NCBI GenBank assembly: GCA_016794595.1 | Contig: JAEUJN010000064.1 | Coordinates: 1-33,448 of the forward strand | Direction: 5' to 3' | Length of the DNA: 33,448 bases | Source of the DNA: Kineosporiaceae bacterium | GTDB taxonomy: Bacteria; Actinomycetota; Actinomycetes; Actinomycetales; Kineosporiaceae | Shown here: piece after piece, positions 27,825-33,364 of the stretch | Numbering within the stretch: position 1 is the first letter of the stretch | Layout: each line of letters begins with the position of its first letter | Position numbers and translations under genes: made by a program | The notes under the pieces: generated by a model | Seen by the model: only the letters and a program-made list of their open reading frames with translations | Databases searched by the model: none | What the model was told of the DNA's origin: nothing

Positions 27825-28346
27825 ATGCCACCCGTCGAAGTCTCCCCGTTCGCCGGGGGCGACCGGCAGCTGTCCGGATTCGTGGTGTCCGGGCGCTGGC
27901 CCGCCTCCACCCGTGAGTGGGCGCAGTTCCTGGCGCTCGCCGTCCGCTTGGCCGCCGTCCCCGGCCTGGTGCCGACCACCACCGTCTACCGCGCCGTCGA
28001 CGACGTCCCGGAGGACCCTCAACCGGGCACCGTCGGCCTGGTCACCGCCGCCGGGCCGGTGCTCGGGGACGGCGCCCCCCGGCCCGGCCAGTTCAGCGAG
28101 GAGTCGCCCTCGGCGCTGATCCTGCTGCACCCTCCGGCCGAGTCCCGCCCGTCCACGCCCGAGGCGGCCGGGTCGGCTTCCGGCTGCGTGCTGCTGCCCG
28201 GCCTGCCCCACTTGGGGCTGGAGCACCGGGCGGCCTGGGTGGAGGCCGAGGTGGACGGCACGGTCACCCGGCTGGTCAGCCAGGTCGGTGTCGACCCGCT
28301 GCGCGACCCGGACACCGCCGTCCTGGCGATGCTGTTGGCCGCCTGA
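27825..28346 (+). CDS. Protein of unknown function, 173 aa
   Basis: I do not recognise this protein. It is 173 residues and acidic, with an alpha/beta look: a strand-rich start (RQLSGFVVSGRWPAS), the helix EWAQFLALAVRLAAVPG, a central Pro-rich part and a final AAWVEAEVDGTVTRLVSQVGVDPLRDPDTAVLAMLLAA (given by its ends). No signal peptide, membrane segment or Cys cluster. The ATG at 27825 is fixed by GGGAGG five bases upstream. It is followed after 68 bases by the large helicase-like gene on the same strand, which has its own promoter, and preceded by a CIRCE-like repeat. Confidence 0.66.
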   Translation: MPPVEVSPFAGGDRQLSGFVVSGRWPASTREWAQFLALAVRLAAVPGLVPTTTVYRAVDDVPEDPQPGTVGLVTAAGPVLGDGAPRPGQFSEESPSALILLHPPAESRPSTPEAAGSASGCVLLPGLPHLGLEHRAAWVEAEVDGTVTRLVSQVGVDPLRDPDTAVLAMLLAA

Positions 28347-28414: not shown

Positions 28415-31400
28415 GTGGCTCATGACGCGTTGCCCGATCGTGCCGCGCCGCGGCACGGACGGGCGCGCCACCAGCCCAGCGGCGCCGCCGGGCGGCTGCC
28501 GGGGACACCCGAGCCGACCGAGCCGGCAGCCGACGCCTCGGTCGTGATCGACACGGCGGAGCCGACGGTCGGGATCGCGTCGGCAGAGCCGACGGTGGCC
28601 GTCGCGTCGACCGAGCCGACGGTGGCCGTCGCGTCGACCGAGCCCGAGCCCGAACCGGTCACCGTGCCGGCGGTCGATCGGTGGCGGCGGACCCTGGCGG
28701 CGGCCCGACTGCCCGACACGCTGATCGGTGAGGACGGCAGCACCGACGTCCTGGACCTCACCCATGCCCACCCCTCGGGCCTGGCCACCTTGATGGCGGG
28801 GCGGTCCACCCGACTGTCCAGCCTGGTCCGTGAGCCGGCGGCGCACGCGGCGTCGCGGCGCCGGGCCCGGTTGATCGCAGCCAGCGCCGAGTCCCTGGCC
28901 GCCGAGCGAGGCGTGCGTTCCTGCTATCTCGCGGCCGGCCTGGTGACCTGGACGGACGGGCCGGCGGGGGCCCCGGTGCTGCTGCGCAGCTGCACCCTGC
29001 ACCCGCGGGGAGCCGGTCAGGACGACTACGAGCTGGACCTGGACGACACGGCAACGGTCAACCCCGAGGTGGTGCGCCGGTTGGCCTCCGGGCACGGCAT
29101 CGAGCTGGATCCCTCATGGCTGGGCGGGTTGTCCTTCGGCGTCGACGGGTTCGACCCGAGGCCGGTGTACGCGCTGCTCGAGGACGTGTGTGCCGCCGTC
29201 CCGGGGTTCGCCATCGACCGGCGGCTGGTGGTGGGCAGTTTCACGCCCGGGTCCGACGCCCTGATCGCCGACCTGGACGCCGCCCGCCTGGCGCTCGAGA
29301 TCCACCCCCTGCTCGGCCGGCTGGCGAACACCACCCCGTCCATGGAGGCGGCCGCCGCGCGTCCCTTGCCCGATCCCGGCGATCCCGACGCCGACCGCCT
29401 GCGCCGGGCGCGGCCCTTCGTCGTCCTGGATCCCGAACCGGAGAGCGACGACGTCCCGATGGAGCTCGACTGCGCTCAGCGGGCTGCCGTCGATGCCGCG
29501 CTCGGTGGCTCGCACGTGGTGATGGAAGGTCCCCCGGGCACCGGGCTGACCCACACCCTCGCGGCGGCGGTCGCCACCCTGGTCGCCCGCGGACGCCGGG
29601 CGTTGATCGTCACCCCCCACCGGGGGACCGCCGATGCGGTGGTGCGGCGCTTCACCGAGGCCGGGCTCGGTGACCTGGTGCTCGACCTGCACGACGGCAT
29701 CGGCGACCGGCCCAAGATCCTGGCCGCCCTCGGGATCGGGCTGCAGGCTGCCTCGCGCAATGCCGAATCCGGCGCGGAGGGGTCCGGCGCTGCATCGGCG
29801 GCCGGCGCCCGGGCGGCCATGACGGAGGCCTCGGCTGCTGCCCGCCTGCGCGTGGCGGCGCAGGCGCTCGGCGGGGCCACCGGCGCCCTGCACGCGCGCC
29901 GGGATCCCTGGGGGGTCTCGGCCTACGACGCGATGGTCGCGCTGGCCGACCTCATGGCATCGGACAACCCGCCCCGCACTCGGGTGCGGCTGCCGATGGA
30001 CACCTGCCGGCAACTGGACGCCACCCGTCGGGACAGCCTGCGCGCGGACCTGCGCCAGGTCGCCGAGCTGGGCGCCTTTCACCAGACCCGGGTGGACACC
30101 CGGTGGCTGGACGCCAAGGTCGCCACCGACGAGGAGGCCGCGCGCGCCCTGGCGGCCGCCCGGGCCGCCCGAGAAGTGCTGCCGGAAGCTGCCGCGGCGA
30201 TGTCCCGGCTCGCCCTGGCCGCAGGGCTCGAGCCGGCCACCGTGGTGGGTTCCTGGCGACCCCAACTCGACCTCCTGCTCGCCGTGCGGGACACCCTGGA
30301 CGTGCTGCAGCCCGCCGTGTTCGAACAGCCGATCGCCGACCTGATCGCCGCGCTGGACCCCGATGGCGACCCGGGGCACGAACAGGCGGGCTGGCTGGCA
30401 CGTCGGGCGCTGCGCCGCCGGGCCATGGCCCTGGTGCGCCCGGGCACCCACCTGCCGGACCTGCACGCCCGCCTGCGCAGGGCTGCCGAGCAGAGGCGGC
30501 GCTGGCTCGACCTGGCGCCGGGCGGTGGCTGGCCCCGCGTGCCGACCGGGCTGGAGGCCGCCGACGCGGCGGTGAACCGGCTCGAACTGGCGCTCGAGGT
30601 GCTGGCCGGGGTGCTCGACGGCACGGGAACCCCGGACCTGGCCACGCTGGAGGTCGACCGGTTGCGTCAGCGGCTGGCTGACCTGTGTGCGGACGCCGAC
30701 GGCCTGCTCGCCCAGCCGCAGCGGCGGGTTCGGATGAAGCGACTGCACGACGCCGGTCTCACGCCCTTGCTGGTGGATCTGAACGATCGTCGCCCGGAGC
30801 CCGAGGACGTGGACGGCGAGCTGGACCTGGCCTGGTGGACCTCGGTGCTGGAGACCATCATCCGCAACGACCCTCACCTGGCCCGGCACGACCCGGCCGC
30901 CCTGCGCGGGCACGTGGAGACCCTGCGCGAGGCCCAGGCGCAGGTGCTCCAGGCCCGGGTCGCCCAGATCCTGGCCGGCGTCAGCCTGCGAGCCACCGAC
31001 GTGGTGCGCACCCGGCCGGACCAGGTGCGATGGCTGCTGGCCGAGGTGCACCGGGGTCACCGGTCGAGCTGGCCGATGGACTGCCTGTCGCGGGCTGGTG
31101 AGCTGGTGGGTGCCTTGCGTCCGATCTGGGTGATGAGCCCGGACGCCGTGGCCCGCAACCTGCCGCCGGCGCGCCCCGGGGTGCCGATGCTCGACGTGGT
31201 CGCGGTGGACGACGCGAGCCAGGCCGGCATGCCCGAGTGCGCCGCGACGCTGGCCCGGGCGCAGCAGGTGATCGTCGCCGGTGACCGGCGGCGCATGCCC
31301 CCGGCCACCGGCGGGCCCTCGGTGATCGAGGCGCTGGCCGAGCTGGCGCCGTCCTCGGTGCCGCGGACCGCACGCCTGGTGCCCGCTCACCCGCTGGTCT

Positions 31401-32746
31401 CCCTGCATCGTCTCGATCGCGATCACCGCACCCGGGACGGGCGCCTGCTGTTCCCGCTGCGATCGGGCTACCCGCAGGTGTGGGGGCTGACCGCCGGCGC
31501 GGCGGCCAGCTCTCCCTTGCGGCTCGAGCACGTTCGCGAGGGCACCGGAGTCCCGGCGCCCGGCGAGCAGATGGCGGTCAGCGCCGCCGCCGAGGTGGCG
31601 CGGGTGGTCGACCTGGTCACCGAGCACGCGGTACGCCGTCCGGGGGAGTCGCTGCTGGTGGTGACCCTCGGGGCGCGGCACGCCGAGCGGATCGAGGAGG
31701 CGTTGCGGTTCGAGGTGGCCGATCGGCCCGAGCTGGCCCGCTGGCTCGATGTGCACTGGGCCGGGGACATCTCCGAGCCGTTCCTGGTGCGTCCGATCCA
31801 CCGGATCCCCGGCGTGGAGCGGGACGCAGTGATCGTCTCCATCGGCCTGGCCCGGACCCCGCACGGGCGGGTCCTGCACCGGTTCGGCGTGCTCGACGGC
31901 CGGTTCGGGCGGGCCTGCCTGACCACGGCGCTGTCGCGGGCCCGCCGTCGCACCACCCTGGTCTGCTGCTTCACCGCGGAGGATCTCGATCCCGAACGGC
32001 TGCGCACCGACGGCTCGCGGATGCTGCGGGACGTGCTGGCGCTCGCCGCCGACCCGGATGCCCGGGGAGATCACCCGCCGCTGCCGGTGACCTCAGCGGC
32101 CGATTCCGACCAGGCTCCCGATGCCCTCGTCCGCGACCTGCGCGAACGGCTGGAGGCAGTCGGGCTGCCGGTGGTCGACGGCCCGGTGTGCGCCGACTGG
32201 CCGCTCGAGCTCGCGCTGGCCGATCCGGATCAGCCCGGACGGCGGCTGCTCGCGATCGAGGTCGACGGGCCGGGCTATGCGAGCTGCGCCAGCGTGGGCA
32301 CCCGGGACCGCCTGCGGCGCGAGACCCTCGAACGGGCCGGGTGGACCTATCTGCGGGTGGCCTCGATGGACCTGTTCTGCGATCCGGGTGCGGAGGTCGA
32401 GCGGATCCGGGCCCAGTGGCGCGACCTGGTCGGGGCGGCCCAGGCCACCAAGGAGACGCTGATCATCGTCGGCAGGCCCCGGGTGCGCGGACCGTTCCCG
32501 CCGGTGGCCCCGGGACGCCCGGTGTCCCTGTACACCTCGGCCGAACTCGAGGACGTGGCCAGCTGGGTGCTCACCGATGGGGTGCAACGCAGCGCCGAGG
32601 AGCTGGCGGCCCTGGTTCGCGAGGCTCTGCACCTGCCGCGGCGGGGCATGCACGTCGAGGCTGCGGTCGGTGGGGCCGCCCGGCGCGTGCTGGACGGCGT
32701 GCCGGCACCCGACCCGAGTGGGGGTGCCCGTGTCCCAGGGCCCTGA
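28415..32746 (+). CDS. Large SF1 helicase-like protein with Vsr-like nuclease domain and altered ATPase motifs
   Basis: A 1443-residue protein laid out like DUF4011/SF1 helicase-endonuclease proteins. Residues 1-90 are low complexity with a repeat (EPTVAVAST). The Walker A region is MEGPPGTGLTHT (372-381): the usual Lys is Leu378. The Walker B region is VVAVDDASQ (932-936), where D-E-A-S is usual, and motif III reads GDRRRMPP (956-963) where GD-x-x-Q-L-P-P is usual. Motif VI is kept in part (TTALSRARRR, near 1170). The C-terminal part (about 1230-1350) resembles the Vsr-like MTES_1575 nuclease: LAIEVDGPGY, TRDRLRRETLERAGWTYLRV and ASMDLF. The first acidic position of that site appears as Glu (PLELALAD). 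ATP hydrolysis is thus doubtful; a nucleic acid-binding or regulatory role is possible. The start is a leaderless GTG. Confidence 0.8.
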   Translation: MAHDALPDRAAPRHGRARHQPSGAAGRLPGTPEPTEPAADASVVIDTAEPTVGIASAEPTVAVASTEPTVAVASTEPEPEPVTVPAVDRWRRTLAAARLPDTLIGEDGSTDVLDLTHAHPSGLATLMAGRSTRLSSLVREPAAHAASRRRARLIAASAESLAAERGVRSCYLAAGLVTWTDGPAGAPVLLRSCTLHPRGAGQDDYELDLDDTATVNPEVVRRLASGHGIELDPSWLGGLSFGVDGFDPRPVYALLEDVCAAVPGFAIDRRLVVGSFTPGSDALIADLDAARLALEIHPLLGRLANTTPSMEAAAARPLPDPGDPDADRLRRARPFVVLDPEPESDDVPMELDCAQRAAVDAALGGSHVVMEGPPGTGLTHTLAAAVATLVARGRRALIVTPHRGTADAVVRRFTEAGLGDLVLDLHDGIGDRPKILAALGIGLQAASRNAESGAEGSGAASAAGARAAMTEASAAARLRVAAQALGGATGALHARRDPWGVSAYDAMVALADLMASDNPPRTRVRLPMDTCRQLDATRRDSLRADLRQVAELGAFHQTRVDTRWLDAKVATDEEAARALAAARAAREVLPEAAAAMSRLALAAGLEPATVVGSWRPQLDLLLAVRDTLDVLQPAVFEQPIADLIAALDPDGDPGHEQAGWLARRALRRRAMALVRPGTHLPDLHARLRRAAEQRRRWLDLAPGGGWPRVPTGLEAADAAVNRLELALEVLAGVLDGTGTPDLATLEVDRLRQRLADLCADADGLLAQPQRRVRMKRLHDAGLTPLLVDLNDRRPEPEDVDGELDLAWWTSVLETIIRNDPHLARHDPAALRGHVETLREAQAQVLQARVAQILAGVSLRATDVVRTRPDQVRWLLAEVHRGHRSSWPMDCLSRAGELVGALRPIWVMSPDAVARNLPPARPGVPMLDVVAVDDASQAGMPECAATLARAQQVIVAGDRRRMPPATGGPSVIEALAELAPSSVPRTARLVPAHPLVSLHRLDRDHRTRDGRLLFPLRSGYPQVWGLTAGAAASSPLRLEHVREGTGVPAPGEQMAVSAAAEVARVVDLVTEHAVRRPGESLLVVTLGARHAERIEEALRFEVADRPELARWLDVHWAGDISEPFLVRPIHRIPGVERDAVIVSIGLARTPHGRVLHRFGVLDGRFGRACLTTALSRARRRTTLVCCFTAEDLDPERLRTDGSRMLRDVLALAADPDARGDHPPLPVTSAADSDQAPDALVRDLRERLEAVGLPVVDGPVCADWPLELALADPDQPGRRLLAIEVDGPGYASCASVGTRDRLRRETLERAGWTYLRVASMDLFCDPGAEVERIRAQWRDLVGAAQATKETLIIVGRPRVRGPFPPVAPGRPVSLYTSAELEDVASWVLTDGVQRSAEELAALVREALHLPRRGMHVEAAVGGAARRVLDGVPAPDPSGGARVPGP
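28559..28639 (+). repeat. Three tandem 27-bp repeats inside the helicase-like gene
   Basis: Three 27-base units starting GAGCCGACGGT at 28559, 28586 and 28613. Units two and three are identical; the first differs at a few bases. They encode EPTVGIASA, EPTVAVAST and EPTVAVAST in the disordered N-terminal tail, and the number may vary between strains. Confidence 0.85.
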
Positions 32747-32870
32747 GGAGCCGGTCCTCCCCGAGCAGACTCGCGATGATAGCGACGAGGGTGGCGACTG
32801 GCGGGATCGGGACGAGGACATCGACCGTGATGCCTGGATGGAACGCGAGCGGCCACCTCACTGGGAGTGA
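32730..32870 (+). CDS. Small acidic protein ending RERPPHWE
   Basis: A 46-residue, strongly acidic protein that begins inside the last 17 bases of the helicase-like gene in another frame. Its key parts are PEQTRDDSDEG, a D/R-rich middle and the ending WMERERPPHWE. I recall similar small proteins ending in RPPHW in other actinobacteria, but cannot check it here. Three GTG codons at 32718, 32724 and 32730 could start it; I chose 32730 because a G-run lies five bases upstream. The overlap suggests it is translated together with the helicase-like protein and may be its partner. Confidence 0.62.
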   Translation: MSQGPEEPVLPEQTRDDSDEGGDWRDRDEDIDRDAWMERERPPHWE

Positions 32871-33016: not shown

Positions 33017-33364
33017 ATGTCGGGATTCAAGGCATTCGTACTCAAAGGCAACCTGGTCGACCTCGCGGTCGCTGTGATCATCGGTACCGCGTTCGGCGCC
33101 GTGGTCACGAAGTTCACCGAGTGGCTGACCGGCCTGATGCCGGAATCGGCCTCGGACTTCTTCAGCACCGCTCCGCAGAGCTTCGGCGCGTTCCTCAACG
33201 CGTCCATCTCGTTCCTGATCCTCGCGGCAGTGGTCTACTTCTTCGTGGTCAAGCCCTACCAGGCGGCCAAGGACCGGTTCTTCCCCGACGCCCCCGCCGA
33301 GGACCCGGCTGACATCAAGCTGCTGGCCGAGATCCGCGATCTGCTGGCTTCGCAGCGGCGCTGA
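33017..33364 (+). CDS. mscL: Large-conductance mechanosensitive channel MscL
   Basis: A 115-residue channel protein that opens under membrane tension to release solutes on sudden osmotic downshift. The N-terminal amphipathic helix and first membrane segment are clear: MSGFKAFVLKGNLVDLAVAV (shown as its first 20 residues), then IIGTAFGAVVTKF. The second helix is FLNASISFLILAAVVYFFVV (about 57-76), and the C-terminal helix is DIKLLAEIRDLL. The loop between the helices is rather short, which fits the smaller actinobacterial members. AAGGAG lies six bases before the ATG at 33017. A -10-like TAGGGT lies at 32953. A strong terminator hairpin follows. Confidence 0.95.
   Translation: MSGFKAFVLKGNLVDLAVAVIIGTAFGAVVTKFTEWLTGLMPESASDFFSTAPQSFGAFLNASISFLILAAVVYFFVVKPYQAAKDRFFPDAPAEDPADIKLLAEIRDLLASQRR

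Follow-up and report, generated by a model that had tools for sequence, protein, structure and literature searches.

The window analysed here, a stretch of 33,448 nucleotides, carries an intact open reading frame of 1,443 codons (hereafter the giant), whose end overlaps a conserved gene for a very small acidic protein (hereafter the PPHW protein), with mscL downstream and a further conserved reading frame upstream. The features are as follows.

27825 to 28346, forward strand: conserved upstream ORF of 173 aa, its link to the giant uncertain
28415 to 32746, forward strand: giant pseudo-helicase, 1,443 aa, GTG start, intact frame
32135 to 32413, forward strand: Vsr-like REase domain of the giant (Pfam MTES_1575), residues 1241-1333, some of its acidic residues changed
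GTG 32724 or 32730 to stop 32870, forward strand: acidic PPHW mini-protein of 46-48 aa, overlapping the end of the giant, a conserved gene
33017 to 33364, forward strand: mscL, a frequent neighbour identified by Pfam, outside the proposed system

The giant is laid out as a DUF4011-like N-terminal domain, an SF1 helicase core with a long insertion, an MTES_1575 nuclease and a conserved C-terminal stretch. The helicase core is recognisable by sequence (Pfam AAA_11, 38.9 bits against a cut-off of 27), its PDB matches are Upf1/SMUBP2/DNA2-type SF1 helicases, and the nuclease domain passes its gathering cut-off (54.4 against 38.2 bits). DUF4011 stays below threshold in the window protein (19.8 bits against a Pfam gathering score of 22.2), whereas two relatives that keep the Walker A lysine pass it, with 29.0 and 47.5 bits. 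A Pfam search matched no HEPN domain in the giant, and an AlphaFold model built from two sequences is of low confidence (pLDDT 39.6, pTM 0.27). Judged from these domains and from the motifs described below, the giant is a core pseudo-helicase of the DUF4011/MTES_1575 helicase-nuclease kind.

Five helicase motifs of the giant are degenerate; they are named here by standard usage.

29528 to 29551, forward strand: degenerate Walker A, GPPGTGLT (residues 372-379), with L378 at the lysine site; GPPGTGKS in paralogs
31208 to 31219, forward strand: degenerate Walker B, DDAS (residues 932-935), with D933 at the glutamate site
31280 to 31303, forward strand: degenerate motif III, GDRRRMPP (residues 956-963), with R960 at the glutamine site
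31805 to 31825, forward strand: degenerate motif V, IPGVERD (residues 1131-1137); VQGDERD in paralogs
31919 to 31945, forward strand: degenerate motif VI, LTTALSRAR (residues 1169-1177); LNVA[VI]TRAR in most paralogs, the arginine kept

The Walker A lysine, Walker B glutamate and motif III glutamine of an active SF1B (Upf1-like) helicase are thus replaced by L378, D933 and R960, exactly where the original prediction had placed these changes. It overlooked two further losses, those of the motif V glutamine (now P1132) and the motif VI asparagine (now T1170). In the window's genome and in related ones, paralogs read GPPGTGKSQT, DEASQ, GDxxQ[LM]PP, QGDERD and mostly NVA[VI]TRAR. Orthologs of the giant are found in 12 of the 13 genomes of its GTDB family (the window's own counted), most of them 49-60% identical to the window protein; the thirteenth genome is 88% complete. 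The original prediction had suggested aligning such homologs, naming close ones with an intact lysine as the evidence that would speak against it, and none emerged: the 12 aligned orthologs carry leucine (four, window counted), alanine (six), histidine (one) or asparagine (one) at the lysine site, all share D933 and hence DD instead of DE in Walker B, and none has the motif III glutamine (GDRRR in ten, GDPYG and GDPRG in one each).

Beyond the family, a first profile covering the N-domain and Walker A was searched against 98 genomes of the class and matched 24 of them at E<=1e-8. Thirteen of these matches are full-length (E<1e-37), including those in all six genomes of the order sampled; the remainder, to judge by their length and incomplete match, resemble paralogs. 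Of the order's 149 genomes, 146 are matched by an improved profile. The lysine site was read in 135 of these (window counted), and one of the other 11 (G189) shows a paralog-like match only. The wider survey aligned 144 loci (120 of them fetched for it, the window excluded), comprising 136 from the order, one from Actinomyces oris and seven from other families of the class. The lysine is kept at nine loci, eight of the 136 in the order (six genomes of family f33 and two of f68) and one outside it (G112, f57). At the 135 others, hereafter called dead, 14 different residues take its place (A 45, V 24, G 13, S 11, T 10, R 9, Q 8, P 6, L 3, N 2, and H, M, I and D once each), the alignment at this site being uncertain by about one residue in the most diverged members (f66 and f67). 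Arginine replaces the lysine in f50 and G075, and at the three f67 loci read (L240, L241, L243), from small genomes that we presume to resemble bifidobacteria, the P-loop is wholly replaced (EQTGRHSADD and similar). Within the order, the giant is also retained in genomes of 2 Mb or less (L226, L229 and L236 read at the lysine site). The idea that loss of ATPase residues is a clade trait therefore holds for the whole of the window's family and most of the order, but not for the nine loci with lysine, which belong to two other families of the order and one outside it.

The A. oris relative comes from a public record filed as a 415-kb plasmid; it is full-length, 31% identical to the giant over 1246 positions, annotated as 'DNA helicase', and reads APPGSDVAGT at Walker A. 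At its locus the giant is followed by a small ORF ending NDARLRRDVPPHWG, then by mscL and a SAF protein. Because the A. oris protein is 68% identical to that of genome G179, the order would include Actinomyces-type bacteria.

Two trees place these members. An IQ-TREE phylogeny of 25 members and nine paralogs separates the two sets with support of 100/100 and recovers an all-dead group of the window's family, A. oris, G098, G020 and G161 (99.9/100), several other nodes being weak. One member cut by a contig end (L090) was left out of the trees; ORFs in the wrong frame at L037 and L040, together with a short fragment, L039, were discarded after motif comparison with the paralogs. The FastTree phylogeny holds 141 members and nine paralogs: three of the 144 (L129, L140, L150), all lacking the lysine and with fewer than 950 aligned columns, were left out of it and of the conservation counts. 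Here members from the order and A. oris form one clade of 134 tips (support 1.0). Within it, the eight lysine-bearing members of the order all fall in a clade of 11 tips (1.0), and the remaining 123 tips, all dead, group with a support of only 0.412. Nested within the 11-tip clade are three dead f33 tips (0.987), and six further dead tips, all with lysine changed to arginine, lie outside the order (0.683). These placements require a minimum of three separate losses on the tree; the true number may differ because support for the 123-tip group is weak and because L129 (genome G197), a dead fragment from f68, where a further loss is possible, is absent from the tree. Two f33 members look like intermediates between active and dead proteins: both keep the lysine, but L139 (G247) has lost the motif III glutamine, the motif V glutamate and the motif VI asparagine, and L134 (G286) the motif VI asparagine. 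Since a single gene family, and even f33 by itself, includes both dead members and members with the lysine, the presumed change from motor to scaffold can be traced directly.

The dead proteins are maintained by purifying selection, as argued by low dN/dS and by near-invariant residues despite the lost catalytic sites. Across 60 partly overlapping pairs of close dead members the median dN/dS is 0.182 and the maximum 0.349, while the single lysine-bearing pair gives 0.247; in the window's family the two closest pairs give 0.12, and values reach 0.46 in comparisons across genera, whose synonymous sites have diverged strongly. This bears out the claim, made from the intact 1,443-codon frame, that the gene is no decaying pseudogene. 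When 1185 columns were ranked by conservation in the 132 dead members with good coverage, the lysine site came 902nd and the motif III glutamine site 999th, and the Walker B glutamate is retained in two members. Near-invariant in the same set are W564, R663, P187, L687, G175, D927 and W1310. Also kept are G375 of the P-loop (131 of 132), G956 and D957 of motif III (127 and 129), R1136 (117), D1137 (124) and R1177 of motif VI (121); the retention of G375, the motif III glycine and aspartate, and R1177 would allow nucleotide binding without hydrolysis in some lineages. Helicase homology, loss of the catalytic residues and continued selection together characterise the giant, at the level of sequence, as a pseudohelicase.

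If the ATPase is dead, the Vsr-like nuclease might still work, making the giant an ATP-independent DNA or RNA nuclease. Besides the MTES_1575 score above its cut-off, the retention in dead members of D1284 (126 of 132), R1297 (109), G1309 (127) and W1310 (128) speaks for this, and D1284 and R1297 in particular would make nuclease activity possible. However, of positions 1265, 1282 and 1284, which we take to be the acidic catalytic residues, the first two vary. Position 1265 is aspartate in all nine lysine-bearing members, but in the dead ones it is proline in 52, aspartate in 22, alanine in 17 and glutamate in 12, with others in the rest; E1282 is kept in eight of the nine against 40 of the 132. 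The window protein does carry the predicted glutamate in place of the first nuclease aspartate (E1265), although the position is variable, with D, S or E across its family, and 1282 is E or D there. A working nuclease is thus unlikely, if worth keeping in view, as the explanation of the giant's retention.

The closest named models of the giant are anti-phage ones, which raises the possibility of an immunity protein that no longer needs ATP. The giant scores 347.6 bits with ProA (NCBIfam NF058533) and 217.3 bits with Hhe (NF042953), and PADLOC matches it to PDC-S37 at E 2.2e-110. Both NCBIfam scores are far below the curated cut-offs (1500 and 2000 bits), and membership in ProA or Hhe is rejected. 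For comparison, ProA is passed by paralog L094 (1798.6 bits) and failed by two lysine-bearing relatives (800.9 and 868.4), and the Swt1-like HEPN at the N-terminus of L094 has no match in the window giant. The genomic setting also speaks against immunity in the usual sense, including the immunity sensor proposed in the original prediction: a defence gene would be expected to be patchy, whereas the giant is matched in 146 of the order's 149 genomes and, in its own family, sits with mscL in a chromosomal stretch that is conserved. Many of the family loci also hold SAF-like, MTAP-like phosphorylase and FmdB-like genes (names given by eye; mscL by Pfam), and in the wider set mscL is near the giant at 78 of the 131 loci with at least 1500 bases downstream. 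Viral contigs, scanned with two short peptide patterns only, yielded no relative. Retention in almost every sampled genome of the order, including ones of 2 Mb or less, points to a housekeeping role rather than optional immunity. A mobile defence gene is rejected in view of this spread and the conserved family neighbourhood, a mobile immunity role for the giant looks unlikely, and an ATP-free anti-phage protein appears improbable.

The 173-aa ORF, which has no Pfam, NCBIfam or PADLOC match, lies just upstream of the giant in eight of 11 family loci at 73-84% identity, and is thus more conserved than the giant itself; of the three family loci without it, two have a contig end about 1 kb or less from the giant. 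Two genomes from a different family of the class carry it unlinked (63-66%), with no giant within the surrounding 18 kb.

The giant might instead serve an active paralog in the same cell, a ProA-like anti-phage protein, as its decoy or its regulator. The window's genome does encode a paralog with intact motifs (L037:3355-10131 on contig C20; GPPGTGKS, DEAS and GDSRQLPP), which scores 1363 bits with ProA against the cut-off of 1500. Against this, 111 of the 146 matched genomes of the order show a single match and 35 more than one, a rough count because the profile spans the N-domain and Walker A only and one gene may match twice. We consider such a role a long shot. As a separate observation, the ProA-type paralogs L092, L093, L094, L037, L025 and L040 read LLD where other nuclease domains of this kind read ECD or EVD; with their helicase motifs intact, the Vsr-like nuclease may be altered there. 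Finally, an artefact such as a sequencing error, a pseudogene or a strain-specific loss, in favour of which nothing was found, has a negligible chance, since the loss is shared by 12 family orthologs, frames are open and dN/dS low across many genomes, 12 of 13 family genomes have an ortholog, and the lysine is absent from 135 of the 144 wider loci.

In the small gene that overlaps the giant's end, the PPHW profile matches the window at 32760-32867 (E 3.7e-8); a typical PPHW protein has DDxDxGWG, an acidic run and PPHW at or near its C-terminus. PPHW is present at 113 of the 144 giant loci, fused to the end of the giant in 29 and in a separate downstream frame in 84, eight of the latter being less sure at 650-1363 bases from the giant. 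With PPHY or PPHF at 11 more loci, 124 of the 134 testable loci have a PPHW/Y/F tail; the other ten, with enough sequence, show neither this nor PPHH at the giant, and ten of the 144 end too early to judge. Genome G075 has no tail beside its giant, yet a tail match occurs on another of its contigs. At the f67 loci L240, L241 and L243 the tail carries a fixed extension, ELPPHWGLFP. On the tree, fused and separate states change at least ten times, in either direction, with the fused ones in ten groups, and when the labels were shuffled 200 times the mean was 26 changes; this repeated fusion argues for a working link between the two proteins.

PPHW is not exclusive to the giant, and that idea was dropped: its profile matches 65 of the 98 class genomes at E<=0.01 (weak matches counted), against 13 of 98 with a full-length giant match, and 53 of the 65 are without one. 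Since more genomes have the PPHW gene than have the giant, their adjacency may partly be inherited gene order. Among 20 fetched tail loci (L255-L274), 19 of them from genomes without a full-length giant match, mscL is nearby in nine, and the PPHW gene looks ancestral at the mscL locus, with the giant as a probable later arrival. The proposed link between the giant and the acidic micro-protein is strengthened by repeated fusion, but the micro-protein also occurs without the giant.

Our preferred reading, to which we give a probability of roughly 55%, is that the giant, a vertically inherited core pseudo-helicase, is an ATP-independent scaffold or sensor bound to nucleic acid, which works with the PPHW protein. 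The original prediction's overall interpretation, a protein kept for a non-catalytic job, is partly supported in this form. A DUF4011/SF1 helicase/Vsr-nuclease ancestor would first have come to adjoin the PPHW gene of the mscL locus. Most lineages then lost the residues of ATP hydrolysis, three or more times independently on the tree, the remainder of the protein staying under selection. What remains is predicted to lack ATPase activity; most likely it needs no ATP to bind nucleic acid and serves as a sensor or platform on which partner proteins are held. The PPHW protein would be an interaction tail that can detach and in some members is covalently joined to it. The giant's job is probably structural or one of sensing rather than unwinding, because nearly all sampled genomes of the order keep it though most members, the window's included, have lost the ATP-burning residues. 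A gene matched in almost every sampled genome of the order, and labelled 'DNA helicase' in one record or more (that of A. oris), is therefore probably no helicase in most of them, and its tiny conserved neighbour, often fused to it, offers a handle on its job. More speculatively, and at odds that we put short of even, the giant, as a near-universal core gene of the order, might be an ATP-independent pseudo-helicase that forms a so far undescribed complex with PPHW, for example a platform for DNA maintenance or for sensing forks or breaks; an anti-phage-type helicase-nuclease would then have become a housekeeping scaffold, losing catalysis repeatedly.

Among open-licence papers, searched by title or abstract, we found no description of the giant's family or of such an inactive clade. 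Its best named relatives by profile are ProA and Hhe, from which it differs in its dead ATPase motifs and in forming a clade apart from the ProA-type paralogs in the trees. The closest architecture is that of the MTES_1575-type giants, which are described as combining HEPN-Swt1, a transglutaminase-like domain, an SF-I helicase, a Vsr REase and two wHTH domains (Anantharaman et al. 2013, PMC3710099). The window protein likewise joins an SF1 core and an MTES_1575 Vsr-type nuclease in a single giant; it differs in that it has no HEPN match, its helicase motifs are dead, PPHW is adjacent or fused, and a match occurs in nearly all sampled genomes of the order. In Pseudomonas aeruginosa, the core flank of a defence hotspot is reported to include a DUF4011 gene, next to which lies a small hypothetical gene that is likewise conserved.

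The preferred ATP-independent platform or sensor is favoured by two precedents for useful dead helicases, and the change envisaged would be of the same kind as in Deinococcus PriA or AddB. D. radiodurans PriA is reported to carry Walker changes including lysine to arginine, the change also seen here in f50 and G075; it has lost ATPase activity and keeps DNA binding, with evidence that it binds the replicative helicase (PMC4504706). The giant resembles it in having degenerate Walker motifs, phylum-wide in the case of PriA, within an otherwise retained helicase, and differs in belonging to another helicase family and in that PriA has a known partner. In AddAB, the Chi-recognition locus is reported to sit in a helicase-like region of AddB (PMC4824097). 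The giant as we read it would share with AddB a helicase-like region that serves DNA recognition, although AddB acts inside AddAB, whereas the giant would do so without a known active partner.
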